A model generated the notes under the pieces. The model was not told where the DNA came from. It made no database searches and saw only the letters and a list, made by a program, of their open reading frames with translations. DNA of 61,975 bases from an uncultured Lachnospiraceae bacterium (GTDB lineage: Bacteria > Bacillota > Clostridia > Lachnospirales > Lachnospiraceae): positions 1 to 61,975 of the forward strand of contig CAMAGI010000004.1 of NCBI GenBank assembly GCA_945833775.1, read 5' to 3'. How positions within the stretch are numbered: the stretch's first letter is position 1; each line of letters begins with the position of its first letter. Shown here piece by piece: positions 1 to 14,741 of this stretch. A program made the position numbers and the translations under genes.

Positions 1-364
1 TACCCTGCTGCTTGATGGTGAAGTTATAAGTCTCCATCAGCCACTCACGATATGCAAGGGTATCCTCGTCATATGCGCTGGTGGGATCAGCGGGCTTGCC
101 TTCGGGATCGGACCACCAGTCACGGATGATGATTTCCATTCCGCCGAGGTCGTAAACATTGCCGTTCTCATCCTTCAGAATAGGATAAGGGCTTACTTCT
201 TCTTCGGAAGAAGCTACTTCCTCACTGCTCGCGGGAGTAGTCTCGCTGCTCTCGGGAACGTCACTGCTTGCGGGAGTTTCTGTGCCGCCGCAGCCGGCCA
301 TACCTACGGTCATTACAGTTGCCATAGATGCAGCCAAAAGTCTTCTTACAATCTTACTTTTCAT
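1..364 (-). CDS. Extracellular solute-binding lipoprotein of a sugar ABC importer (3' end cut off by window edge)
   Basis: This is the first 121 codons of a binding protein that would capture a sugar or oligosaccharide outside the cell and pass it to the two permeases encoded just upstream (580-2482). The start ATG at 362-364 has AGGAGG 7 bases before it. The product begins with a basic signal peptide ending in MAGC, so Cys25 is the expected lipidation site. A Ser/Glu/Thr-rich linker (about residues 27-56) follows, then the beginning of a mature domain with the motif GGMEIIIRDWW, usual for CUT1 binding proteins. Unlike the other genes of the locus it has its own promoter and operator (498-553). 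The C-terminal domain is outside the window, so the substrate cannot be guessed. Family assignment is confident. Confidence 0.88.
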   Translation of the reverse strand, partial: MKSKIVRRLLAASMATVMTVGMAGCGGTETPASSDVPESSETTPASSEEVASSEEEVSPYPILKDENGNVYDLGGMEIIIRDWWSDPEGKPADPTSAYDEDTLAYREWLMETYNFTIKQQG

Positions 365-497
365 TTTACATCCTCCTTTTATTTATATAAATTCCTTTCA
401 CCTCTTCGGGGAACGGTAATTTTTCCGGGCCGATCTCCTCGAGGAACAAAGAAATTATATATGTATTGAGTCCTGTATCCGGGCGGGCTTACGTCTT

Positions 498-513
498 GGT
501 TAAACGTTTAGCC
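498..513. promoter_or_regulatory. LacI-family-type operator palindrome
   Basis: The 16-bp sequence GGTTAAACGTTTAGCC is an inverted repeat with one mismatched pair and the central CG typical of LacI/GalR-family operators. It starts about 12 bases downstream of the -10 box of the promoter at 525-553, where a bound repressor would block transcription of the binding-protein gene. No LacI-type repressor gene lies in the window. A CcpA-type catabolite site is an alternative reading, but the match to a cre consensus is not exact. Confidence 0.6.
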
Positions 514-524
514 ACCACTTTTTC

Positions 525-553
525 ATTCTATCACATTGTCCTTTTGTTAGCAA
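525..553 (-). promoter_or_regulatory. Sigma-A-type promoter of the binding-protein gene
   Basis: On the minus strand TTGCTA (548-553) is followed after exactly 17 bases by TAGAAT (525-530). It lies between the stop of the permease gene at 580 and the start of the binding-protein gene at 364, giving an untranslated leader of roughly 150 bases that contains the palindrome at 498-513. It lets the binding protein be made in excess over its permeases, a common need in ABC importers. Confidence 0.6.
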
Positions 554-579
554 GTCCTTCTGCCGTAAAATCCCGAAAA

Positions 580-1581
580 TCACATCTTGATACCGGATGA
601 ACTTAAGCTCTCCACAAAGCCCTTCTGTGCAAACAGATACAGCAAAATCAAGGGCAGAATAATCATCAGCGTACCGGTGGAAAGGATCGCATTGGAATAC
701 GCAACGGAGATGGTGGTTTTAACGCCCAATATACGCTGCATATACGCGCCCAGGCTGTCCACAATTCTGGAGAGCGATGTGCTCACCAGATTGGTTCCGC
801 CGAGGAACATCTTGGAGTAAAAGCCGTCTGTCCACTGCCAAACAAAGGCGAACAGGAAGCAGGAGGTCAGAATTGGCTTTGCGTCCGGGAGCATAATCCG
901 AATGAAGGTTTTCAAGGTTCCGCATCCGTCCACATATGCCGCCTCTTCCAGTTCCTTCGGAATGTTGCGGAAGAACTGACGGATCATGTAGATATAGAGT
1001 CCGTTCTTCAACCCCATACAGGTAGCACTCATCAGATAGTACGGAAGTACCGAGTTTCTGAGGTTAATGGTCTCTCCGCGAATCAACTGTGACAATCCCA
1101 ACACATCGAAGAAACGGAAATGAAGGTGCAGGGATGTTGAAATCGTCTGCGGAGGAATCAGGATCACCAGCATAACGCAGGCAAACCAGAAGTTCTTAAG
1201 CGGAAATTCAAATCTTGCAAATCCGTATCCAACCAGTGTACAAACGGTAATCTGCAATACGGCAATTGATAAGGAAATAATAAGCGAATTTTTAAGTGCT
1301 TTGCCGTAATTCATCAGCTGTGCCGCCAACTTATAGTTGTCCGTTGTAAAATGCTCCGGAATGGAAAATACCAACGGATTATACAAATCCTCTTCTGTCA
1401 TGAAGCTTACCGAAATCTTATTCAAAATCGGCTGGAGGATCAGGAAGCACATACCGAACAGAAGAATAAAACGACATATACTGAGTACAACTGTCATAAT
1501 ACGCTTCTGTAAAAGATATCCTCCCGATTTCCGGTTTCTTTCCCAGAAGTCATTGCTTTTCTTATGCTTTGCTTTAGTCAT
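580..1581 (-). CDS. Carbohydrate ABC transporter permease (MalG-type, CUT1)
   Basis: This 333-residue inner-membrane permease would form the channel of a sugar importer together with the gene at 1574-2482, which it overlaps by 8 bases. It has a basic, cytoplasmic N-terminus, about six membrane segments, and the ATPase-contacting EAA loop near residues 213-230 (EEAAYVDGCG, then a proline-containing IMLPDAKP). GGAGGG lies 10 bases before the ATG. The C-terminus ends in the SLSSSGIKM type tail common to this subfamily. No ATP-binding subunit is encoded in the locus, so a shared MsmK-type ATPase elsewhere in the genome is the likely energy source (inference). Confidence 0.93.
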   Translation of the reverse strand: MTKAKHKKSNDFWERNRKSGGYLLQKRIMTVVLSICRFILLFGMCFLILQPILNKISVSFMTEEDLYNPLVFSIPEHFTTDNYKLAAQLMNYGKALKNSLIISLSIAVLQITVCTLVGYGFARFEFPLKNFWFACVMLVILIPPQTISTSLHLHFRFFDVLGLSQLIRGETINLRNSVLPYYLMSATCMGLKNGLYIYMIRQFFRNIPKELEEAAYVDGCGTLKTFIRIMLPDAKPILTSCFLFAFVWQWTDGFYSKMFLGGTNLVSTSLSRIVDSLGAYMQRILGVKTTISVAYSNAILSTGTLMIILPLILLYLFAQKGFVESLSSSGIKM

Positions 1582-2482
1582 AATAGTAAACCCTCCTGGA
1601 AATAATCAGTGATGAGATTGCAACAAACACAATTACGATAATGAAGTAAATCCACGACATTGCCGATGAAAAACCATAGTTTATCTGCTCGATCATTACC
1701 GTGCTGATCTTATCGATTACTTCATTGTCGGATCTCATACAGAAATCAACAATGGTATAAATCCAGTTTACCAGGAACAGGGAGCTGATCATCGGGAAGG
1801 TGATCTTCCACAAACTCTCCCACTTCGTACATCCTTCGATATCCGCGGCTTCATACATGCTGGAGGAAATCGTCTGCAAACCGGAGAGGAATATGATGAT
1901 CTGAATTCCGGAAGCAATCGCAACATCATAGATGTTATCGATGATCTCAAATACCTTCTCGAATGCTCTTGTTCCTACCCCGGCGGTACGAAGGATCGTC
2001 TGAATGGCATCGGTAATGCTGACACCGCTTGCATTCTCCTCCATGGATGCCTGGATAATCGAGATCAGGGAGTTGTTGGACTCCAGTCCGAGCATAACAC
2101 CGGATGAAAGAATCACCGGGAGGAAGAAGATTGCTCGAACCAATGCTCTTCCCTTAAATTTCTGATTCAGGATCAAAGCCACGAAAAAGCTGAATACCAT
2201 AATCGCCAATGTATTGTACAGCATTCTCGTAAGTTCTTCCACCAAAAGGCGGTTAAATTCAGGGTCAACCCGAAATGCCTGAATGTAGTTGGTAATACCG
2301 ATCGGCACCATCGTAAAGCTTCCCGATTCAACCTGTACATCACAGAAGCTCATGTACAGAGATTGGCAAAGGGGCTTAATCATAAATGCCAGAAACCCGA
2401 TGATGAAAGGCATTATGAACAGGTATCCCGACACAGCCTTGCGTCTCTGAAGACCCGCTAACTTATTCTTCTGTTTCTTCAT
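1574..2482 (-). CDS. Carbohydrate ABC transporter permease (MalF-type, CUT1)
   Basis: This is the partner permease of the gene at 580-1581. The product has about 302 residues, six predicted membrane segments and the EAA motif near residue 211 (YEAADIEGCTKW, then ITFP). An upstream GTG two codons earlier is in frame, but the AAGG sequence is better spaced for the ATG at 2480-2482, so that start was chosen. It contains a long loop (about residues 134-180) that is unusual for a minimal MalF-type permease and probably lies outside the membrane. It is 23 bases downstream of the DUF5696 gene and almost certainly in the same transcript. Confidence 0.92.
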   Translation of the reverse strand: MKKQKNKLAGLQRRKAVSGYLFIMPFIIGFLAFMIKPLCQSLYMSFCDVQVESGSFTMVPIGITNYIQAFRVDPEFNRLLVEELTRMLYNTLAIMVFSFFVALILNQKFKGRALVRAIFFLPVILSSGVMLGLESNNSLISIIQASMEENASGVSITDAIQTILRTAGVGTRAFEKVFEIIDNIYDVAIASGIQIIIFLSGLQTISSSMYEAADIEGCTKWESLWKITFPMISSLFLVNWIYTIVDFCMRSDNEVIDKISTVMIEQINYGFSSAMSWIYFIIVIVFVAISSLIISRRVYYYD

Positions 2483-2505
2483 AACCACTACCCTTTCTTA
2501 CCTTT

Positions 2506-5100
2506 TTATCGAACAACCTTATAGTCTCTGGCAGGCACTGTAGCTCCATCGGGCGCTTCAGCATCTGCATACCCATAGTTTACATAAACCCTGGTGCCAT
2601 CTGCGTATGTGGTACAGGACATATCCGCAAGAACCATCTCATGATTCACCATTTCCTGATTGTACAGATGTCCCAGTTCCGCATTGTATCGGTTGTAGAT
2701 CGACATCATTCTGTCATGCCATGCCGCATAATCAGAACCGTAATACTCGGTGTAAAGTGTTTTTTGCAGAGCAAATGCGGATTCGTTCATCATTGTAAAG
2801 TAGAGACCCGCACCATATTCTACCGATCGCAGAAGTTCTTCTTCCGTATTTCCGCATATGTTCAGCGCGTCCCCGGTATAATTTACATACCCGTGAATCG
2901 CCAGCTGGTAGAAAGGAACAAAGGAATCCAGAATGGTGTATTCGCTTCCCTGCAAATCCATGTTGGTGACAATATCACTGTATGCTATAGCATAATCATT
3001 ACCCATATTGATCATGATGTTCTGACCGGTATCGGACATTGCCTTCAACTGTTCGCTCTGCAGCTTCATAGTTGCCTGACGACTATGAGGATTCTTACGG
3101 TAGAAATCGGAAGAAAGATCCATTCCGTTATCGCGGAAAGCGATACCGGTTCCGTAGTTCTTCGCCGTCTTTGCTAATCTATCCGCAAGATCAAGTGCGA
3201 TGTCTGTATGAAGCAGATAGTAACTGTCAAGCCAATCAGCCTCTGCATAAGTTACATCGCTGTACTCCCTCAGTTCGACTCTCTCCTTACTGATTAGCTT
3301 TGCCGCATCGGTATAGGAGAAAAAGCCATTGAGTATTCCACTGTCATACGCATATTGCGTGACGCCTTCCAGATAGACATCGACACCAAGCCCCTCCGCC
3401 GTTGCAATCATGTTCTTGAGATCTCTCTTGCTACCCAGCGCAGAGATCGGCCGGATGGATTTCAGAATCTTCTGTTTGACACCGCCGTTACACCAGCCGG
3501 TCATCTTTACGGACAGATTCTTCATTCCCTCGCTGTCAAGTTGCCTGACAATTTCCTCTGCCTCCTTGTAGGTGGTCAGCTTCCAGGGTCTTGAAACGGG
3601 GATACCGACGATCTGTTTTACCTTGTCGACCGCACCAACCAACTCAAGCACCACGGGTGTATCGCTGTCATCATTGATGGAGAAAGCATCCCCATAGGTA
3701 TCCTTTAAATACCTCTGATACTCCTTCGCCATGTCCACATAGCTGTCGGAATCAATAAAGCGGTATCTCTGGGTCAGCGTCTCGTCGGGCAGTTCCTTCA
3801 GATAAACGTAAACGGAGCTGTTTGCAATCTCGCTTACATCGTATTGTTCACGGGAACAGATGCTGTAAATAGCATTGGCGTAATTGTACTGATTGTACCG
3901 GCCGCTGATATCTGCCTGAACCGACGCATAGGGCGCACCCTCCTCCAGAATGCACAAAAAAGAATTGCCGTCTCTTGCGATACCGAAGGTATTGTAATAG
4001 GTCCTGGTATTATGTACCACCGCATCACGACTCAGCGCCATATCCCAACCATACACATTTGCGTAGTAGCTGTTCTGGGCAGTCTTGCCGTTATTAAAAT
4101 TGATGGTTGCACCGCCGCCCTCGGGAACCAGGAGATATCCTTCATCCTCCAATCCGCCGGCTCCGAAGAAAGGAAGGGGATTGAGTGTGTACAGAGGATA
4201 ATCCTCCTTGAATTCCATATCACTCAAGGGAAGCTTTACCACCAGATCATTGCCATCCAGCTGATAAATCATGCTGACATTGAAGACCGGCTTATCCGTG
4301 GATGACTCGCCGTTAGCAAGCTCCTTATCCGCTGCGTAATCCTCCACACTGTATCCGATACTCTCAAAGTACTGCTCCAATTTTACCTTCAGGGCTTCAC
4401 TGGTACCGTCACGCATCACATAGATGGGTTCCGTCTCCAGGATGGGATAGCTTTCCAAGAGTGATTCCTTGTCATCCTTCTTGCCGAGTGCGTTAATATC
4501 GTACTTTTTATAGTAGGACTTTACCATATTCTTGCCGTCTTTGTCCAAAAGCTCCAGCCAATGATCCATCTTCTCTTCCGTCGTAACAGTGGGAATCATG
4601 TACTCCCGCTCGATATCACCGATGGAATAATTCACACGAATGTAGTCATCACCGGTTTCAATCTCATAGACGCTGTTTTTGATACTGTAATCGTAGTTGT
4701 TCAGATTGGACTCCAAACCGGTCTGAACGCTGTAGGAAAGTGCCAGTGTCGACTGAAGCTTTCCCTTCTCCGCCGTCAATGCAATGGCATCGTTGGCACC
4801 GTTTTCGGGATTGGATCTCCACTCCATCCCCGTGCTTTTCACCTTCAGTACGAACTGTGTGGTCTCGGGATCCATGGTGAACTTCAGAGCATCGTTCTCC
4901 AGGACAAGCTCCGAATCACCGCCCTCATACCCGTTGATACGGACAATCTCCTCTTCCTCCTCTACATTCTGGTAATTCACGACGAAAACAACGCCTCCCA
5001 GAATAATTGCAGCAAGGATGACCGGGAAGATCAGGCTCTTCAGCTGCTTGATCACAGCCGCCTTAAATTCTGCTTTTCTGACTGATTTTTCTTTCTTCAT
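2506..5100 (-). CDS. Membrane-anchored DUF5696 protein, possibly a glycosidase-like enzyme
   Basis: This 864-residue protein has a basic N-terminus and one membrane segment (about residues 22-44), then an extracytoplasmic body with no further hydrophobic segment. The overall sequence matches what I know as DUF5696, a family of no assigned function found near sugar ABC transporters. The N-terminal half is rich in beta-type sequence and the second half (from about residue 470) alternates predicted strands and helices like a TIM barrel, with acidic motifs such as FRDNGMDLSSDFY. This layout recalls GH36/GH101-type glycosidases, but the catalytic role is inference. TAGGAG precedes the ATG by five bases. 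It lies between the Yip1 gene and the permease pair. Confidence 0.75.
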   Translation of the reverse strand: MKKEKSVRKAEFKAAVIKQLKSLIFPVILAAIILGGVVFVVNYQNVEEEEEIVRINGYEGGDSELVLENDALKFTMDPETTQFVLKVKSTGMEWRSNPENGANDAIALTAEKGKLQSTLALSYSVQTGLESNLNNYDYSIKNSVYEIETGDDYIRVNYSIGDIEREYMIPTVTTEEKMDHWLELLDKDGKNMVKSYYKKYDINALGKKDDKESLLESYPILETEPIYVMRDGTSEALKVKLEQYFESIGYSVEDYAADKELANGESSTDKPVFNVSMIYQLDGNDLVVKLPLSDMEFKEDYPLYTLNPLPFFGAGGLEDEGYLLVPEGGGATINFNNGKTAQNSYYANVYGWDMALSRDAVVHNTRTYYNTFGIARDGNSFLCILEEGAPYASVQADISGRYNQYNYANAIYSICSREQYDVSEIANSSVYVYLKELPDETLTQRYRFIDSDSYVDMAKEYQRYLKDTYGDAFSINDDSDTPVVLELVGAVDKVKQIVGIPVSRPWKLTTYKEAEEIVRQLDSEGMKNLSVKMTGWCNGGVKQKILKSIRPISALGSKRDLKNMIATAEGLGVDVYLEGVTQYAYDSGILNGFFSYTDAAKLISKERVELREYSDVTYAEADWLDSYYLLHTDIALDLADRLAKTAKNYGTGIAFRDNGMDLSSDFYRKNPHSRQATMKLQSEQLKAMSDTGQNIMINMGNDYAIAYSDIVTNMDLQGSEYTILDSFVPFYQLAIHGYVNYTGDALNICGNTEEELLRSVEYGAGLYFTMMNESAFALQKTLYTEYYGSDYAAWHDRMMSIYNRYNAELGHLYNQEMVNHEMVLADMSCTTYADGTRVYVNYGYADAEAPDGATVPARDYKVVR

Positions 5101-5144
5101 GGTTACTCCTATCCTTTTAGCTTAAGGAATGCTTCCTTCCAATG

Positions 5145-5801
5145 CTATAGCCGGAACAAAAATTCTTTGCCCAGAGAAATGAAATATGCAACACCCTGTG
5201 AGATCATGCTGAAGAACAACAGCAGGATAAATACCATTACCAGCATAGCAAACAGGGTAAACACTGTGAACAGAAGATTCTTTCCCATGGAATACTCATG
5301 AATCTGGCCCATGGCGGCGAGGATAAGCAGTGCCGCCCACACAAGGGAAATTGCGCTGAGCATGGTGTAGAACTCTCGCTCATCAACCGTTACCAGGTTG
5401 CTGAAAATCATCAGCGGAAACTGCATCAACGGATAAGGAGTCAATGCATAACAGGTTGCCATATAGACCTGCCCGAGCCTTCCCTTCCCATCGAACAACG
5501 TGGTTAACGCCCAGTTGCCGACTACCCAGAGAGCCAAAGGGAACAACACACTCGACAGATACAGGAAGATATTGATGTCCTCCCAGTATACCGTCATAAA
5601 GATGAAACTGGTGTACCGCAGTTTCATGACTCTGGCAACCAGCGTCAAAATCAATATGGTATTTGCCGCAGCGTAGGATCCCCTTCTCTCGTGTGTAAGA
5701 TCCCAGAACCCATCCAACGGATGAGTGATGCAATACAATGCAAACTTCAATGTGGCGAAATACTTTTCATAAGTCTCTTTCTTCTTCAATGAAGCAATCA
5801 T
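5145..5801 (-). CDS. Yip1-family integral membrane protein
   Basis: This 218-residue protein has five predicted membrane segments in a Yip1 arrangement: a soluble N-terminal stretch with the motif ITHPLDGFWDLTHERRGS, then hydrophobic segments with the conserved TALTPYPLMQFP-like motif (seen here as CYALTPYPLMQFPL). Its biochemical role is unknown; bacterial Yip1 proteins often sit beside transporters or secretion genes. It is 16 bases downstream of the NHL-repeat gene and 44 bases upstream of the DUF5696 gene, with GGAGG five bases before its ATG. A scaffolding or assembly role for the surface proteins of this locus is only a guess. Confidence 0.8.
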   Translation of the reverse strand: MIASLKKKETYEKYFATLKFALYCITHPLDGFWDLTHERRGSYAAANTILILTLVARVMKLRYTSFIFMTVYWEDINIFLYLSSVLFPLALWVVGNWALTTLFDGKGRLGQVYMATCYALTPYPLMQFPLMIFSNLVTVDEREFYTMLSAISLVWAALLILAAMGQIHEYSMGKNLLFTVFTLFAMLVMVFILLLFFSMISQGVAYFISLGKEFLFRL

Positions 5802-5817
5802 ATCGGCCTCCGTTTAT

Positions 5818-7326
5818 CTAGATTCTGAAGATATCTGCGGTATCAATCTCGTGCTTAATACTCTTCACCTTACCGATACCCAGGGGAATCAGGAACACTG
5901 CAAGCAACAGAATTACGATGATTACAATATGTTCTTCCACCCAATCTTTACGATACTGTTTAAACGCCTTGGAATAATTCTCGTCGTCGTATTTCAGCTC
6001 GAAATAATCCATTGCCTCTGCGTATTGCTCCTGACGAAGCAGTGCGCGGCCGATACCGATATATGCGAGATCGTAGTTGCCGTCGATATCCATCACCTTC
6101 TGCCAGGACTCGCCGGATCCCACATAGTCACCGTCGTCAAACTGCTCAATCGCCTGATAAATCAGGGAGCCGAACTCCGTAACCGTAAAAAGTGTGAGGC
6201 TGCAATCCAGAGAATCCAACACCAGAAGATCATGCCCCATGTGCTCCAATGCAGAGGGCTGGTTAAAATAACCGTCCATGTTGCCGTTGCTGCCGAAGGC
6301 GTATACCATTCTTCCCTGATCGTCGTATCCGAAAAGACGTCCGCGGTTTCGGTCAAGCACAACATAGATATCATTCTCCATCACCGTCACATCGGTGAAG
6401 TAGGAGGGACCGGTATGACCGCCGCCCTCTCCGAAATACAGATCACCGAAAACCGGCCATTCGCCGTTTCTTACCAGGATGTCATTGCCCAGCAGATTCA
6501 GCTTGCGGATAGGATCTACCTCACCGGCATCCAGATCCTCCTCTTCCACACTGTCCGTAACCACATAGATGAATCCTTCATGATCAATGTAAGCGTTGTC
6601 ATACTCGGTGGGAACGAAGGATTCCATCTGGGCTCTCTGTTCCTGAGTTGCAAGCTTTTTCCAGATGTAATCCGCCCAATCGTAGGTAACCGGAGTGGCT
6701 CCCACAAAGCCCGAGAAGGTTGTGTCATTCTCATATTTGATCAAACCCTTGTTGATACCGGATGCCACACAGTACACACGCCCTGCGGTATCGATCACAA
6801 TCTTGGTCGGTAGAAACGATGCATTGGGATCCAGAGAGGAATCCACAGGCTTATCAAACTGTGTCATATAATTGAGATCACTGTCCAACTTCAGGATTCT
6901 TTCATTGCCCTTGTCGGCAATAAAGAACTCGCCCTCCTCGGAGACTGCGATATCCGTCGGGCCGGAAAACGTAGTGACCTCGACATTTCCCTTGAAGCTG
7001 TCAATGATGCGCTTCACCTCAAACTTCTCTCTGGACACACGCTCCAGCTCCAGAATTCTGTTGTTGCCCGTATCACAGATATAGACCAGATTATCCTTCA
7101 CATACAAGCCCTGGGGAGCTTTCATTTTGACATCCAGACCCAAATCGGTAGATGTAAACACGTCGCTGACCGTATAGGCATCCGGCGAATCCTGCACGTC
7201 CCCCCAGTAATCGTAATTGTAGGTGTAGCTTCTATCCGCGTTTGCCGCCGAAGCCGTCAGGGAAGAGCCCATTACCATCATGGCACTGATCGCAAGGACT
7301 GCCACTCTTTTTGTCATCTTATTCAT
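5818..7326 (-). CDS. Secreted NHL-repeat beta-propeller protein with C-terminal membrane anchor
   Basis: The product has about 502 residues. A signal peptide (to roughly Ala28) is followed by NHL/SMP-30-like repeats that give a propeller, with recurring patterns such as GLYVKDNLVYICDTGNNRILEL, PTDIAVSEEGEFFIADKGN and PTKIVIDTAGRVYCVA. After it come a short helical, TPR-like section (about 410-460) and a hydrophobic segment near the C-terminus (IVIIVILLLAVFLIPLGIG) with a basic tail, so the propeller should face outward. The open frame continues to an ATG at 7344, but the ATG at 7324-7326 has GAGGTGG at good distance and begins a proper signal peptide. The ligand is unknown. It stands between permease and Yip1 genes. 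Confidence 0.82.
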   Translation of the reverse strand: MNKMTKRVAVLAISAMMVMGSSLTASAANADRSYTYNYDYWGDVQDSPDAYTVSDVFTSTDLGLDVKMKAPQGLYVKDNLVYICDTGNNRILELERVSREKFEVKRIIDSFKGNVEVTTFSGPTDIAVSEEGEFFIADKGNERILKLDSDLNYMTQFDKPVDSSLDPNASFLPTKIVIDTAGRVYCVASGINKGLIKYENDTTFSGFVGATPVTYDWADYIWKKLATQEQRAQMESFVPTEYDNAYIDHEGFIYVVTDSVEEEDLDAGEVDPIRKLNLLGNDILVRNGEWPVFGDLYFGEGGGHTGPSYFTDVTVMENDIYVVLDRNRGRLFGYDDQGRMVYAFGSNGNMDGYFNQPSALEHMGHDLLVLDSLDCSLTLFTVTEFGSLIYQAIEQFDDGDYVGSGESWQKVMDIDGNYDLAYIGIGRALLRQEQYAEAMDYFELKYDDENYSKAFKQYRKDWVEEHIVIIVILLLAVFLIPLGIGKVKSIKHEIDTADIFRI

Positions 7327-7343
7327 ATGCCACCTCTTCCTCA

Positions 7344-8246
7344 TTAATCCTTCAGACCGGAGCTTGCCATGGTCTCCAGAATCTGGCTCTCTGAGAAAAC
7401 GAAAATCGCAATCGGGACAATCATGACCACAACCAGAACGGCTGCGCCCTGTCCGGTTCTTGCAATACCGCCGCTCTGGATCTGCTGCAGTGCGTAAACC
7501 AGCGTTTTCTTCTCCTCGGAATAGATGTATGTAGCTGCCTTGTTATTCCACAATGCCTGAACCGAGAAAATAATCAGGGTCATCCAGGCGGGCTTTACAT
7601 TCGGCATTACGATGCCGGTAAACACCCTCCACTCGTTCGCGCCGTCAATCTTGGCTGCCTCAATCAGAGAGGTGGGCAAGCCTTCCATGAACTGTTTCAT
7701 CAAAAACAGTCCCATGGGCGATGCAAACGCGGGAATAATGATTGCCCAATAGGTATCGATCCATCCCAGCTTATTCAGGATCAGATAGTTCGGAATCTGG
7801 GTTACATAACCGGTGAACATCATTGCCACCGTAACCAGCTTGAAGAATGCGTTTCCGCCGGGGAACTCATACTTCGCAAGTACGAATGCGCCCATGGAGG
7901 CAATGATCAAATGTCCGAAGGTTCCCACAAAGGTAATAAAAGTTGTGTTGAAAAGGTATCTGGAGAATGTCACCCAGGACTTACCCATGGTGACAAACAA
8001 ATCCGAAAAGTTATCAAAGGTCGGATTCTGTGCCAGAATCTTGGGTGGGAACTTAAACAGTTCATCCAAGGGCTTCAGTGCACTGCTGACTGCGTAAATG
8101 ATCGGGAAAGCCATGATCAACGCCACACAAACCAAGAACAAATACAAGAAGATATCGCCGATGATGGAACGATTCGGTTTTCTTCTTTTGATTAATTTCT
8201 TCCGATATACTTTCTCGATGTTTTCTTCTTTTTTCTTCTTGCTCAT
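7344..8246 (-). CDS. Carbohydrate ABC transporter permease (MalG-type, CUT1)
   Basis: This 300-residue permease has a strongly basic N-terminus, six predicted membrane segments and an EAA loop near residue 195 (LIEAAKIDGANEW, then IVMPNVKPAW). It begins one base after the stop of the MalF-type gene at 8248-9186, and the two form the second permease pair of this locus. The C-terminal MASSGLKD tail resembles that of the other MalG-type protein at 580-1581, though the two pairs are clearly diverged. The next gene downstream, the NHL protein, follows within 17 bases. Confidence 0.93.
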   Translation of the reverse strand: MSKKKKEENIEKVYRKKLIKRRKPNRSIIGDIFLYLFLVCVALIMAFPIIYAVSSALKPLDELFKFPPKILAQNPTFDNFSDLFVTMGKSWVTFSRYLFNTTFITFVGTFGHLIIASMGAFVLAKYEFPGGNAFFKLVTVAMMFTGYVTQIPNYLILNKLGWIDTYWAIIIPAFASPMGLFLMKQFMEGLPTSLIEAAKIDGANEWRVFTGIVMPNVKPAWMTLIIFSVQALWNNKAATYIYSEEKKTLVYALQQIQSGGIARTGQGAAVLVVVMIVPIAIFVFSESQILETMASSGLKD

Positions 8247-8247
8247 A

Positions 8248-9186
8248 TCAGGTTCCTACTCTTCTTAACAGACTTTGAATTGCTTTGTTACATAAGATCA
8301 TCATTAAGAACAAAATCGTTGCAATCGCACATGCATATCCCATCTCAAATCTCGTAAAACCATAGTCGAACAGGTGGGTTACGATGGTGCGGGCTGCATA
8401 GTCCGTACTGGGGTATCCGCAGAGAGCCATTGTGACATCGCAGACACCGAAGGCCTGCGTAATCGACATAACCGCACCGAACATCAGCATGGGCTTCATG
8501 TTCGGAAGGGTAATGTACCACAGCTCCTGCCATCTGTTCTTAATACCGTCCATATAACCAGCCTCAAACTGCGATCTGTCGACACCCTGCAAGCCTGCAA
8601 CGAAGGATAGGAATCCGGTACCGAGGCTCATCCACAGAATAACCAGCATACAGATCGGAAGCATGTAGGTCGGATTGATAAACCACAGGATCGGGGTATC
8701 GATGATACCCAGATTCATGAGGAATGCGTTCACATAACCATACGCGTCGCCACGGAAGAATACCGAGAAGATCACATAACAGTTTCCTGCAATTGACGGT
8801 GCATAGAAGACAACCACCGCTATGCTTCGCACCCACCTGGGGAGTTCGTTTATCAGCCACGCAAACAGGAAGGACATGATGTAGCCGAGAGGTCCCGTGA
8901 TGACTGCTATCATCATCGTGTTCTTCAAACCGACCAGGAAAATATCATCTTCCAGTATCAGGCTGATGTAGTTGGACAATCCGATAAATCTGGGTGTCTC
9001 CAAAATATTGTAATAGGTAAAGCTGAAGAAAATGGAGACAACCACCGGTGCTACGTAGAACAATGTAAAGAGGATCGCGTAAGGAGCAAGGAATGCGTAA
9101 CACATTTTGCTTCTCTTCGCTTTCTTCCATGCAACCTGTGCATTGTGCTTACGCAGCGTCACATATTTGCTTAAATATTCTTTCAT
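8248..9186 (-). CDS. Carbohydrate ABC transporter permease (MalF-type, CUT1)
   Basis: This 312-residue permease has six predicted membrane segments and the EAA loop in a variant form, FEAGYMDGIKNRW followed by ITLPNMKP near residue 211, where the second alanine of EAA is replaced by glycine. GGGGAG lies seven bases before the ATG. It is 11 bases downstream of the large binding protein (9198-12155) and adjacent to the MalG-type gene. Together these three genes make a complete importer apart from the ATPase. Confidence 0.93.
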   Translation of the reverse strand: MKEYLSKYVTLRKHNAQVAWKKAKRSKMCYAFLAPYAILFTLFYVAPVVVSIFFSFTYYNILETPRFIGLSNYISLILEDDIFLVGLKNTMMIAVITGPLGYIMSFLFAWLINELPRWVRSIAVVVFYAPSIAGNCYVIFSVFFRGDAYGYVNAFLMNLGIIDTPILWFINPTYMLPICMLVILWMSLGTGFLSFVAGLQGVDRSQFEAGYMDGIKNRWQELWYITLPNMKPMLMFGAVMSITQAFGVCDVTMALCGYPSTDYAARTIVTHLFDYGFTRFEMGYACAIATILFLMMILCNKAIQSLLRRVGT

Positions 9187-9197
9187 GACTCACTCCC

Positions 9198-12155
9198 CTA
9201 TTCTGTCGGCAGACCGAACTCTTTCCGTTTTTTGATAATCTCTTCATCTATCTTGATCGAGTAGTCAATGATCGTCTCTCGCGTGTCATCCTTGTCGTTG
9301 ATGACCTTTCGGATCGCATTCGAGATGTGACGCCCGGTATAGTAACCGCCGGGAACTTCCCGGATACCTCTCGTCTGATTCCACTGCGCATCCAGAACCT
9401 CGATATCATCCGCACTCCAGGAGAGCTGTACAAATGCGTCCTTGTTGGCGGTTGCATATCGGGCGGAGGACCCCAGCAGTGCTTCGATCTCACGTCCGAA
9501 ACGAACCTGCGTATCGGTATCTGCCCACCACTTCATAAATTCCCAGGAATTCTGGCGAAGCTGGTCGTCGTCCGTGGCGATCATCATCGTAGCATTACCG
9601 GTAATAAAGTCTGAGCGGTCAATGTAGGTATTGCCGTCCGCATCCGTATACTCCGTGCCGGGGATCAGGGTAAAGTCCCAAAGACCTCTGATCTCGGGAG
9701 CGGATACCATCAATGTATTGTAGGTAGAATATGCCGAAATACCGATGGGCATCTCTCCGGAACGGAAACGGCTGACAAAGTCATAAACCGTAGGGAGTCC
9801 GTAATCATTAAAGTATCTTACATAGTCGTCAAACGCCTTGATTCCCGCTTCGTCGTCCACCGTCGTCTTGGTGCCCGCCTCGTTATACATGTCTCCTCCA
9901 TACTGGAAGAGCAACGTAAAGTAGAGGGACAAATCCGGAACGTTCGAAGCAATGGCAGTGCTCGCCGCAGTGGAGGAACTGCTTCCGGCTGCGGAAGGAA
10001 TACCTACGGAGAGGTTGTTGCCCTGAATGGTGGGAAGCATTTCAATCAGTTCCTGCCAGGTCTGGGGAACTTCCAGTTCCAACTCCTCCAGAACGTCCTT
10101 ACGGTAGAACATTACGTTGAAGGTCTGTTGTTCGGGTATGCCGTAAATATGACCGTCCAGGCGATACTGTTCGTAAGAGCTTTCCGTGTAATGGGAGAAC
10201 ACCTCTTCCCAGTCGTCAAACTGTGTGAGATCCTCCGCCGCGTTACGAAGCGCATAGTTGACGGGCTGATCCGCTCCGACGGAAAGAACCACATTCGGTC
10301 CTCTTCCTGCCAGCACTGCGTTCAACAGTGCACCGGGATCGACAATCTCTACGTTTACCTTGACACCGGTTTCGGGTGTGAAGGAATCGTCTACCATGGA
10401 TTTCAGAATAGTACCCTGGTCACGGCCGGTCAAAATCCAAACCTTGATGACTTCACTGTCTTTTCCGCCGTCGTCATACACATCGCCGACGGAGTTGTAG
10501 TCCACCACAAAGGACGCGCCGAAGGATTTCAATTCGTGCCACAGCTTCATGAAGCCGTTTGCCTTATCCTCCTTGGGGGCCGTATCCGTTCCGGTCACCA
10601 CCAGATAGTCCACATCCAGTTTGGTCTCGCTCATGTTCAGGGAAGCGGTACCGAGTGCAGTGATGTTATCTTTAAAGGTTACGAACTCAAGAGTGATCTT
10701 GTTCGGCTTTTCACAGAAGCGTTCCAGCTGCTGGGCAACCGTCTGAGCAGTAGCAATCTGATCCGCCTTCTGGCCGCTGTAGGCAACCATATCATCCACG
10801 ATCTTGTAGAGACGCTTGGATTCCAGCTCCATCGCTTCCATGATCTCGGGGTAGTTGTTCTCAATCTTGTAATCTCTGTATTTGTCCGGGTTCGCACCGG
10901 TATACACCAGAAGCTTTCGATAGATCTGATTCAAGCGATAGGTGGAGTTCTCAAGCTCCTCCAGAATCGGTCCCAGCCCTCCGAGGGTCGCCTCCAGACG
11001 AATCGTATGGGTTCCTGCCGTAAGATAGAAGTTGTACGGAGTTCCCTCCTCATCGGAAAGCTGCATGCAGTCCCAGTCATTATCATACTCAAAGGAGATT
11101 TCGTTCATTTCCGCAAAAGGAATCTTTCCGTCAATGTATACCGACCGGTTAGAGACACTTCCGCGGGAATAGTTCTGACGACCCTTCACGCAGATGTTAT
11201 AAAAGCCGTCCTCGGGAACTTCAAACTCCCACTCAATCCACTGACCGGAGCTTCTCCACGCGTCGCCGCCGGTATAATTGAGCACCGTGTTGGTAACGCT
11301 GTTAGGCTGTGTGGTCGGGGAGGATCTGTCATATTTTGCATACAGAGAGGATTCCGATCGAAGGGTTGCGTCCTCTCCCTGAATGACCTCAAGATAGGTC
11401 TTGGCGTAATCGGGCATCTGGGTCTGGGGCTGTTTTGCAAGATACTCTTCATAGGTATCCTGTTTCTCGACACCGCTTACGACGATGGACCGAAAGACCA
11501 TAGGTTCATTCTCTGCGGAAATTGTGATCGCGTTCTCGCCCTTCTCCAGATAGAACCGGTAGGGCTCATTTATGTAACCTCTGTCATCCCGGAAGTAGGA
11601 ACTCTGCCAGCCGAACACCTCCACCTGGGTGGGGCGAATCTCATTGCCCTGATTATCCACCTTGATCGGGCCGCCGTCCGTCCACATACGGGTGAAGGAA
11701 ATGTTCAAAGCATCCTCAAAGGGAAGTTCACCGTTGATGTAGACCCCTCTCTCGGCTGCAACGCCGCGGGATTCGGGAATCAGATATTCCATATAGAGAT
11801 TATAAAAACCGGTCTCCGGCACCGTCACCTTCCAGGTAACCTTGGAACCGATACCGGTGTAAAGAGCCTCGTCCGCTCCTTCGTAATTCGAGAGCACTTC
11901 TACATCGCCCTCTGCCTCACACTCGGTCAGGGCAACTTCGACGCTCTTGGTGGAATCCGCAGCATCCGCATGGTCAAGCAGATAACCGCTGTAAGTTCCC
12001 ACTCTCTCCATTCCCGCTACATCGGCAGTCAAATCAATCCCTGCGTATTTGTCATGGAAATCCTCCACCTTACGCATGGACATAAGTACGGCAATCACTG
12101 CTACAACTGCTATAATCGCCACTGCCACGATCACTTTTTTCACAGAGTTTTTCAT
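9198..12155 (-). CDS. Large membrane-anchored binding protein: two carbohydrate-binding-like modules fused to an ABC solute-binding domain
   Basis: The 985-residue product is about twice the usual length of a CUT1 binding protein. An N-terminal membrane segment (VIVAVAIIAVVAVIAVLM) has no lipobox cysteine, so it is an uncleaved anchor. Two similar beta-sandwich modules follow (about 60-230 and 245-395), each with the pattern W.V.VPE-GFYNLY/ICVKG, an INGELPF or IDGKIPF strand and a G.N/HTI strand, as in CBM35-like folds. A helical linker (about 400-480) leads to a type 1 solute-binding domain (about 540-975: VLSVGADQPVNY, YGIPEQQTFNVMFYRKDVLEEL, GEMPIGI). The frame opens at 12170, but the ATG at 12153-12155 has GGAGG six bases upstream. 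It heads the locus. Confidence 0.88.
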   Translation of the reverse strand: MKNSVKKVIVAVAIIAVVAVIAVLMSMRKVEDFHDKYAGIDLTADVAGMERVGTYSGYLLDHADAADSTKSVEVALTECEAEGDVEVLSNYEGADEALYTGIGSKVTWKVTVPETGFYNLYMEYLIPESRGVAAERGVYINGELPFEDALNISFTRMWTDGGPIKVDNQGNEIRPTQVEVFGWQSSYFRDDRGYINEPYRFYLEKGENAITISAENEPMVFRSIVVSGVEKQDTYEEYLAKQPQTQMPDYAKTYLEVIQGEDATLRSESSLYAKYDRSSPTTQPNSVTNTVLNYTGGDAWRSSGQWIEWEFEVPEDGFYNICVKGRQNYSRGSVSNRSVYIDGKIPFAEMNEISFEYDNDWDCMQLSDEEGTPYNFYLTAGTHTIRLEATLGGLGPILEELENSTYRLNQIYRKLLVYTGANPDKYRDYKIENNYPEIMEAMELESKRLYKIVDDMVAYSGQKADQIATAQTVAQQLERFCEKPNKITLEFVTFKDNITALGTASLNMSETKLDVDYLVVTGTDTAPKEDKANGFMKLWHELKSFGASFVVDYNSVGDVYDDGGKDSEVIKVWILTGRDQGTILKSMVDDSFTPETGVKVNVEIVDPGALLNAVLAGRGPNVVLSVGADQPVNYALRNAAEDLTQFDDWEEVFSHYTESSYEQYRLDGHIYGIPEQQTFNVMFYRKDVLEELELEVPQTWQELIEMLPTIQGNNLSVGIPSAAGSSSSTAASTAIASNVPDLSLYFTLLFQYGGDMYNEAGTKTTVDDEAGIKAFDDYVRYFNDYGLPTVYDFVSRFRSGEMPIGISAYSTYNTLMVSAPEIRGLWDFTLIPGTEYTDADGNTYIDRSDFITGNATMMIATDDDQLRQNSWEFMKWWADTDTQVRFGREIEALLGSSARYATANKDAFVQLSWSADDIEVLDAQWNQTRGIREVPGGYYTGRHISNAIRKVINDKDDTRETIIDYSIKIDEEIIKKRKEFGLPTE

Positions 12156-12515: not shown

Positions 12516-14741
12516 TTAATCGGCCGTTCCGGCGGTCAAAATCGATACCAGATAAAACGGAAGCGGTGCATCTTTTTCTTCCTTGATCAATCGGACGGTG
12601 ACGGTATGCTCCGACGTCTCCGATTCCTCACAAAGATTTTGCAGATACAGGCAGTCTCCCCAATCCTCATCGAAATCGCCGTCCAAAAGAATTGCTCCGT
12701 CCTCGTTTCCGTCCACAATCGCCAGGGCTTTGTGAGCCGGGTGGTGAACGGTTCTTCGAAATTGCAACGCAATGCAGGAGGCCTTGACACGAAAGGTAAT
12801 CTGTGCCCCCTCATGTACCGCCGTCCAGCCATAGCGGAAGATATCCGCGATCTGCTCCTGCGGCGTATCATCCCGCTCAAACCCGCTTATGCTCTCGGGC
12901 TCAATGTTCCGATTGCGGAACCGCTTTGCGTTCTCATACCGGTTGTCAGTGACGGGTGCCGGCAGTTTCGTCGTCGACGCCGCTCTTTTCTTTGCCATTT
13001 CTTGATCATCCGAAGATTCGTAAGGGGACAGCTCAAAACACTTTCGAACTTCGCTCTCCAGAAATTCACAGATGTATCCAGCCAGTCTTTCATGCCCCTC
13101 GTCATTGGGGTGCAATCCGTCCGGCGTAATGCATTCCTGTTCGAGCTTTCCACTGACGATCTCAGGATACAGACGATCCCCCAGTCCCACTCCGGGGAGC
13201 AGATAGTTGCGGGCGATATTTCTGTGAATTTCCTGAGCACTACTGCCGTTTTCGTAGTAGCGGTTGTACAAAAGAACCACCGCAGGTTTTGTGGCACTGT
13301 CTAAGATTCTGCGCACAAGTCCCTCATAGGTTTCCGCAAAATGTTCTTCATAGCGATCATTCACACTGAATTCCACAAACACCAGATCCGGCTTTTTTTC
13401 CAGGAGATCCTCCTGCACACGGGCCGATGCAAAATGCGAATCCGTCGCACCGATGCCCGCATTAATATAGGTAAATTCCGCTTTCGGGAAACGCCTCTTC
13501 CACCACTCGAAAGTCCGATAGGCATAGCACCTCTTTGGCATGCTGGCAAGACACCCCTGGGTGATGGAACCACCCAGAAAACCGATGGTAAGCTTTTCTC
13601 CCCTCTTAGCTCTGCGCATCACGTTGTGCAGCCGCGTCGTATCCTGCCAGATATTTTCACCCAGTCCCTTGATGTACGCAGCAAGCTCCTTCGCCATCTC
13701 CTCCGCCTCCGGAATTCGCAGATGCCCCTTGGTTGCGGAACCGTTTCTGGCAAACATGTAATGATGGATCTTGTCATCTCCCATACTCTTGACCACGCGA
13801 TCAATTCCCTCATCCCAGGCTTTTCCATGCTCCAGAAGGGTTGTTATACAGATGATATGGGCATTTGGCCTTTTTGCTCGGATCTTGCCGAGCAGCGCCT
13901 TATAATGCTCGCACCAGCGCTTCGCCGCCTCCCCGGTGGGATTCTCAAAAAAGTCGTCGGGATGGCTGTCATTCTGACCGAGCGCAACGATCACAACCTG
14001 AGGTACATAGGCACGAAAATTCCACTTTGCATATGCATCGGAAGGCGGATAGTACCGGATCGCGTCGTAGACACTCTCCATGCCGATCCGGTTGGGTTCA
14101 TCAAACCATCCGGTGCCGTTCATGGTCGCGATTCCGCCCTGTGCAATATCGTGCAGCCTTGCCCCGAGCAGCCTTGCCGTCATCCAGGCGTAGGAATAGT
14201 AACTGTTGGAATACTCCCCATTGTGTTCCGGGTCCGGCTGTCCGCAAAAAGCGACCGCCTCCGAGACCTCTCCCGCCGAGACAGAATCCCCGTACACCTC
14301 GATACAGCGTTCGGGAAGCGGATCACAGCAGAGTATTTTACTCGTCTCCTCCAGCAGAAATCCGTGGAAACACACGGTGTGGCAGGCATCCTGGCGTTTG
14401 AACAGCACCAGCTCATGAACCCCTTTGCCGTCGATTCCGTCACCCCGGGTTTCCCAGGATAAGCATTCGCTTCCCTCCGGCTTCAGCGGGCACTTTCCCT
14501 CCTCTCCATCCAGGAAATATCCGAGATAGTTGTCCCAATACATTCTCCTGTTGGTCACGACAGCGCGAATGACCGCTCCCGTAAAACGAATGCGGACATA
14601 CGTTGCCGGGAATACCCAGACCGCCTGCTCCGGATCCGTCCAATCAATTCTTCCTTCGTATTGCAAAAGGGAATGGGCAGCAGGTACGATCCGCTCTCCC
14701 TCCTTACGGTACTGCAAAAGCACAGAACTCTGTCCGGTCAT
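12516..14741 (-). CDS. Two-domain SGNH hydrolase, probable carbohydrate acetyl-esterase
   Basis: The 741-residue cytoplasmic protein carries two complete SGNH hydrolase domains. The first has a jelly-roll N-terminal part (about 25-130) followed by GDSVSAG (nucleophile Ser153), GQND (about 255) and a late GHLRIPEAEE (His340), the layout of CE2 acetyl-esterases. The second has GGSIT (Ser392), GATDS, EFSVND and DGLHPND (Asp541, His544). A beta-rich region of about 150 residues follows. There is no signal peptide, so it would remove acetyl groups from imported sugars. It lies 63 bases downstream of recN and upstream of the importer locus. GGGGGA lies five bases before the ATG. Family is confident; substrate is inference. 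Confidence 0.85.
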   Translation of the reverse strand: MTGQSSVLLQYRKEGERIVPAAHSLLQYEGRIDWTDPEQAVWVFPATYVRIRFTGAVIRAVVTNRRMYWDNYLGYFLDGEEGKCPLKPEGSECLSWETRGDGIDGKGVHELVLFKRQDACHTVCFHGFLLEETSKILCCDPLPERCIEVYGDSVSAGEVSEAVAFCGQPDPEHNGEYSNSYYSYAWMTARLLGARLHDIAQGGIATMNGTGWFDEPNRIGMESVYDAIRYYPPSDAYAKWNFRAYVPQVVIVALGQNDSHPDDFFENPTGEAAKRWCEHYKALLGKIRAKRPNAHIICITTLLEHGKAWDEGIDRVVKSMGDDKIHHYMFARNGSATKGHLRIPEAEEMAKELAAYIKGLGENIWQDTTRLHNVMRRAKRGEKLTIGFLGGSITQGCLASMPKRCYAYRTFEWWKRRFPKAEFTYINAGIGATDSHFASARVQEDLLEKKPDLVFVEFSVNDRYEEHFAETYEGLVRRILDSATKPAVVLLYNRYYENGSSAQEIHRNIARNYLLPGVGLGDRLYPEIVSGKLEQECITPDGLHPNDEGHERLAGYICEFLESEVRKCFELSPYESSDDQEMAKKRAASTTKLPAPVTDNRYENAKRFRNRNIEPESISGFERDDTPQEQIADIFRYGWTAVHEGAQITFRVKASCIALQFRRTVHHPAHKALAIVDGNEDGAILLDGDFDEDWGDCLYLQNLCEESETSEHTVTVRLIKEEKDAPLPFYLVSILTAGTAD

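Follow-up and report, generated by a model that had tools for sequence, protein, structure and literature searches.

What do three membrane proteins, carrying NHL, Yip1 and DUF5696 domains, do in the middle of a locus that encodes two sugar importers? The question is raised by a nine-gene locus at the start of a 61,975-nucleotide stretch of DNA from an uncultured Lachnospiraceae bacterium (assembly GCA_945833775.1, contig CAMAGI010000004.1), hereafter called the window. An initial reading of the letters, the original prediction, had taken the three proteins (here, the trio) for an undescribed surface assembly that captures or trims a polysaccharide before two-step import. Glycan delivery to Gram-positive importers is less well understood than that of the SusC/SusD systems. 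On balance, we lean towards a reading in which the trio serves a CUT1 importer as a conserved accessory complex and, with a non-catalytic, GH129-derived DUF5696 protein, hands over glycans at the cell surface.

The nine-gene locus

As predicted, all nine genes lie on the minus strand, with gaps of at most 44 bases until the last (11, 1, -1, 16, 44, 17, -8 and 215 bases in the order of transcription). From position 12155 towards the window start, they are:

9198..12155, minus strand: SBP1, an anchored solute-binding protein of ~985 aa (Pfam SBP domain)
8248..9186, minus strand: perm1, CUT1 permease of importer A, UgpA-like (BPD_transp_1)
7344..8246, minus strand: perm2, CUT1 permease of importer A, UgpE/MalG-like (BPD_transp_1; EAA motif)
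5818..7344, minus strand: NHL protein, 508 aa (Pfam NHL, 53.5 bits, cut-off 20)
5145..5801, minus strand: Yip1-domain multi-pass membrane protein, 218 aa (Pfam Yip1, 44 bits, cut-off 28.6)
2506..5100, minus strand: DUF5696 protein, 864 aa (Pfam DUF5696, PF18952, 650.8 bits, cut-off 25.6)
1574..2488, minus strand: perm3, CUT1 permease of importer B (BPD_transp_1; EAA motif)
580..1581, minus strand: perm4, CUT1 permease of importer B, MalG-like (BPD_transp_1; EAA motif)
2..364, minus strand: SBP2, a lipoprotein-like binding protein, first 121 codons, ended by the contig edge

The Pfam domains agree with the predicted layout of two permease pairs and binding proteins around the trio, except that SBP2 is truncated and has no Pfam match. 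The source contig (G000:C4 in our numbering) begins at window base 1 and so cuts gene 9, beyond which the locus may hold further genes; in most relatives, the SBP2 position is taken by a binding-protein gene of roughly 430-630 aa. Each importer combines a permease pair of the EAA type with a binding protein, as expected of CUT1 systems, SBP2 being present as a fragment only. The EAA motif was found by pattern in perm2, perm3 and perm4, while in perm1, which lacks the pattern, the variant EAG was read by eye; perm3 and perm4 are what we take to be the LplB type and the YtcP type, respectively.

The SBP domain of SBP1 lies in the C-terminal half (residues 584-890 of a 990-aa open reading frame), behind an N-terminal membrane anchor and stretches resembling CBM35 and golvesin that score below the cut-off. 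The gene probably starts at the ATG at 12155, which is preceded by GGAGG, the mechanical start of the frame being 12170. The NHL protein runs from a signal or anchor (14-32) through the propeller and a TPR-like stretch to one late membrane helix (473-491), and Yip1 has at least three hydrophobic stretches. DUF5696 and SBP1 have a single N-terminal anchor region each, followed in DUF5696 (helix 24-44) by a GH129-like ectodomain. This hydropathy pattern across the four proteins suggests that the DUF5696 ectodomain and the NHL propeller face outward. Between 300 and 14900, neither promoter patterns (16, versus 19.9 in shuffled sequence) nor terminator patterns (7 versus 12.4) occurred in excess.

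Linkage of the trio to importer genes

Of 120 genomes of the family, 48 have a PF18952 match, and in 38 of these it exceeds the cut-off, as it does in none of 14 control genomes. We took 40 strong loci from family genomes, 20 loci from a phylum sample (three from one genome), 11 weak-match loci and 80 named loci (the best 80 of 475), the last mainly from Lachnospiraceae such as Butyrivibrio and Acetatifactor. The main set comprises 59 loci, namely the window, L031-L069 and L152-L170; the set excludes L070, which is cut, and L171, which has the same DUF5696 sequence as L120.

A trio that stands apart from importers in most genomes would have refuted the original prediction, but the opposite is seen. 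NHL, Yip1 (L168 included), DUF5696 and perm4 are present in all 59 loci and perm3 in 58 (in L043, perm3 consists of two half-length frames), followed by perm2 (55/59), perm1 (54/59) and SBP1 (52/59). Among the best 80 of 475 named loci, Yip1 is present in 80, NHL in 79 (the one without it begins at the edge of its contig) and perm3 or perm4 in 78. Most of the loci examined have the same gene order, so the arrangement is far beyond chance. The trio genes accompany a sugar importer in many bacteria of gut and soil. It also withstands rearrangement, the trio being intact where importer A has moved behind perm4 (L163, L165, L166) and where perm3/perm4 have moved in front of SBP1 (L069).

The linkage holds in both directions. 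A profile built from NHL-Yip1 fusions (A6), whose figures therefore concern the fused subfamily and not all NHL or Yip1 proteins, gave 42 NHL matches in the 120 family genomes; DUF5696 stands no more than 5 kb away from 41 of them, and the last is a partial match (G051:C171). Conversely, 41 of the 53 DUF5696 places compared (of 75 listed) are close to NHL. Of the remaining 12, 11 are soluble relatives and the last is a gene truncated at a contig end, a further piece of which is found close to NHL elsewhere in that genome. In 398 phylum genomes, with only two or three candidates scored per genome, DUF5696 (E 1e-30) occurred in 37, NHL-Yip1 in 38 and both in 37, the 38th NHL-Yip1 genome being a partial match. 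No relative was found in the viral contigs searched. The prediction of a joint unit that belongs with sugar importers, and that seems to sit on the external side of the membrane, is supported.

The proposal that the two importers act as successive steps of one import route found no support. In a mirror-tree comparison of 51 complete loci, importers A and B form separate co-evolving blocks, and no single partner of DUF5696 stands out (partial correlations: NHL 0.25, perm1 0.23, perm3 0.21, perm4 0.13, Yip1 0.02). Seven loci are short of importer-A genes: five are cut by a contig end or by the end of the fetched stretch, L156 has the trio and one importer with no importer-A match in its 20-kb stretch, and in L160 the only candidates are a permease pair and a binding protein of lower score, situated further downstream. 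We therefore rejected the notion that neither importer can ever do without the other. Since perm3 and perm4 are nearly constant and the importer-A genes less so, the core looks like importer B plus the trio.

Some genomes hold several trio loci on different tree branches, in line with specialization on different glycans: G039 has five, and G051 four or perhaps five. In L129, from a metagenome-assembled genome, DUF5696 is split into two open frames (633 + 230 aa).

So constant a tie to permeases could also mean that the trio binds no sugar and folds, locates or clusters the permeases, in the manner of CD98hc and rBAT, whose dead glycosidase ectodomain is a subunit of amino-acid exchangers. The constancy of perm3/perm4, the single-anchor and apparently dead glycosidase ectodomain described below, and the role of Yip1 proteins in membrane traffic are in keeping with such an assembly or stabilizing subunit. 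We consider it unlikely, since permease pairs stand beside several soluble relatives without any trio, and the fold is that of GH129, not GH13.

DUF5696 and the loss of the catalytic dyad

The DUF5696 protein of the window has a GH129 fold across its full length, although it has no match to Pfam Glyco_hydro_129 at E up to 0.01, whereas its soluble relatives L029 and L030 do match that family. One report describes the catalytic domains of GH129 and GH101 as similar (PMC8106489). Known GH129 enzymes include NagBb (5WZN) and ZgGH129 (8RZK, 5OPQ). Alignments place D435 and E478 of NagBb at D657 and N698 of the window protein, both at the ends of barrel strands in its predicted model. We take D435 to be the catalytic Asp and E478 the acid/base Glu, and the title of 8RZK (D486N Michaelis complex) is consistent with these roles.

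In 70 close relatives, position 698 is never Glu (Asn in 66), and position 657 holds Asp (52), Glu (12) or Asn (6). Across 74 diverse trio members, of which 60 are deep and 14 come from the 80 close ones, the Asp is kept in 41, the Glu in 15 and both in 3, whereas all 11 soluble relatives, whose loci have no NHL or Yip1 match, keep both. A tree of 60 rows requires no fewer than 8 changes of the Asp state and 7 of the Glu state. To judge from these alignments, the dyad is incomplete in different ways from branch to branch while the trio stays intact, and the simplest reading is that catalysis is not needed for trio function. A plain hydrolase role in the window's clade was rejected on account of the incomplete dyad, and the predicted trimming by the trio is not supported.

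There is a small chance that DUF5696 is nonetheless an active surface glycosidase with a changed mechanism, trimming glycans before import. Its fold, the mostly acidic residue 657, and the full dyads and Glu-698 residues among diverse members would suit such an enzyme; the uniform lack of the acid/base Glu in close relatives and the branch-specific decay of a dyad that soluble relatives retain speak against it.

The Pfam DUF5696 model also weakly matches soluble GH129-like enzymes of the family (L174-L182), so that its name conceals a relationship with an established enzyme family. Two proteins of 560-584 aa (L172, 8976-10658; L173, 9127-10881) score between plain GH129 enzymes and trio DUF5696; they have the full Asp/Glu dyad and no NHL or Yip1, and L172 adjoins sugar importer genes. 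It is possible that they are a living form of the enzyme ancestral to trio DUF5696.

A probable NHL-Yip1 unit

NHL and Yip1 share a single open frame in 26 of the 59 loci. A database search with one fusion gave 443 relatives, the best 120 of which are 658-751 aa long and all carry a Yip1 domain. On a tree of 64 DUF5696 proteins, built by a quick method and with several long branches, the fused or split state changes 7 times, at least 4 of these changes being forced by well-supported branches. Because fusion is frequent and the state has changed repeatedly, NHL and Yip1 very likely form a joint unit.

A profile of the fused relatives matches TPRs and solved NHL propellers, including those of TRIM71, the designed 'Pizza' proteins and PknD. 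As PknD is an extracellular sensor and NHL is here fused to a membrane domain, the propeller might detect an external glycan and signal through Yip1 to gate or regulate the importer. The prospect is slim, for Pfam gives the trio neither a kinase nor a sigma or response domain, and the AraC-type regulators are separate genes. The latter lie divergently upstream in all three relatives tested (L071, L120, L132); for the locus in the window, the predicted absence of a regulator stands. That the three proteins are mere neighbours without joint function is hardly credible, being already contradicted by the two-way linkage across the phylum sample and the repeated fusion or fission.

Neighbouring genes and the likely substrate

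Upstream of the locus lies one further gene outside the trio:

12516..14741, minus strand: 741-aa protein with CE2_N and two GDSL-type esterase stretches

It is possibly a deacetylase with two active sites, and related esterases also flank the locus in several Butyrivibrio relatives. From the neighbourhoods of 13 close named loci, we scanned 30 chosen proteins, including two binding proteins of the locus itself, and 7 of the 13 loci have enzymes that fit xylan:

L073, L083, L132: GH115
L104: GH10
L076: GH43 and GH43_C2
L101: GH39/GH43
L120: GH3 and a GDSL esterase

In L073, the tree row nearest the window, GH115 lies directly upstream of SBP1. Given these enzymes near relatives and the upstream esterase, the substrate in the window's clade is probably glucuronic-acid-substituted or acetylated xylan fragments. 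Among 74 proteins downstream of diverse loci, GH130, GH3 and GH43 occur 6 times each and GH31 4 times, beside GH67 and others, and since the glycosidase families differ so across loci, the range of glycans served by the trio is probably wide.

Behind the trio locus, some close relatives have genes of the HlyD-like, FtsX-like and ABC-exporter kinds: L073 (18132-19250), L086 (16222-22308), L075 (19442-21760) and L072 (11585-15263). A published xylan-induced binding protein of Butyrivibrio proteoclasticus, Bpr_I0182, was considered as a member of this locus and rejected: according to two reports (PMC5217386, PMC6344614), Agu67A is Bpr_I0177, which leaves only four locus numbers between, so that Bpr_I0182 can hardly be the last of nine genes in the present order.

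A proposed model of surface hand-over

The accessory-complex reading has five elements:

(i) DUF5696 would be a membrane-anchored, non-catalytic descendant of a GH129 glycosidase.

(ii) NHL-TPR and Yip1 would form one membrane unit with the propeller outward.

(iii) At the cell surface, the trio would most likely retain or position oligosaccharides that are long or branched, without cutting them, and pass them to SBP2 and perm3/perm4 (importer B).

(iv) Importer A (SBP1-perm1-perm2) would usually work in parallel, taking other fragments of the same polysaccharide.

(v) Energy would come from a shared ATPase of the MsmX/UgpC type.

On the last point, the prediction that no ATPase is present is right for the nine locus genes, but the genome has one UgpC/MsmX-type ATPase on another contig (G000:C7:4815-5918; 499.9 bits, cut-off 432). 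An ATPase encoded apart from the importer genes is usual for CUT1 importers, and its absence from the locus was dropped as an unusual trait. Another report describes a sugar ABC importer driven by the MsmK ATPase, whose gene number is far from those of the permeases (PMC12838199).

Several observations weigh against this model or its application to xylan. L153, L154 and L165 keep both catalytic residues, and 64 of 70 close relatives have an acidic residue at 657, so that DUF5696 might retain some activity. No glycosidase occurred among the genes scanned in 6 of the 13 close loci (L071, L072, L075, L086, L124, L150), where HlyD-like, FtsX, ABC-exporter, MCP or regulator genes occur instead; a response regulator and ABC exporters were seen in L071 and L072, which by DUF5696 identity are the two closest among the best 80 of 475. 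Neighbouring enzymes vary widely across the phylum, which confines the xylan reading to the window's clade at most, and in the window itself the locus lacks its tail.

Comparison with known systems

No description of the NHL/Yip1/DUF5696 trio and no paper on DUF5696 was found in the literature searched, in agreement with the original prediction; subscription papers lay mostly outside that search, so novelty is unproven. If the model is true, about one in ten of the sampled phylum species (37/398) carry an importer with an unrecognized three-protein surface complex, a family so far known by the label DUF5696 alone can be traced to GH129 and assigned a testable function as non-catalytic receptor, and neighbouring enzymes could help to predict the substrate of each importer.

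Compared with GH129 glycosidases, the DUF5696 of the window's trio has a membrane anchor and NHL-Yip1 partners, and lacks the acid/base Glu and a Pfam GH129 match. Like CUT1 importers of the LplB/YtcP type, served by MsmX or MsmK, the locus pairs two EAA permeases and a binding protein with an ATPase elsewhere in the genome, but it adds three membrane proteins and, in most cases, has a second importer within its operon. With SusD/SusC of Bacteroidetes, it would share only the idea of surface capture coupled to import, since none of the nine proteins matches SusC or SusD in Pfam and the envelope is different. The architecture recalls the SLC3 heavy chains CD98hc and rBAT, which likewise combine a single membrane anchor with a glycosidase-like ectodomain, devoid in the window DUF5696 of a full catalytic dyad; the ectodomain there is of the GH13 type and serves amino-acid exchangers, whereas here it is of the GH129 type and accompanies ABC importers, so we regard the likeness as an analogy that implies no common origin. 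Tentatively, bacteria may have evolved, independently of animals, a transporter subunit from a dead glycosidase, in which a GH129-derived ectodomain on an NHL-TPR-Yip1 scaffold would form an obligatory surface complex of ABC importers for many glycans throughout Bacillota.

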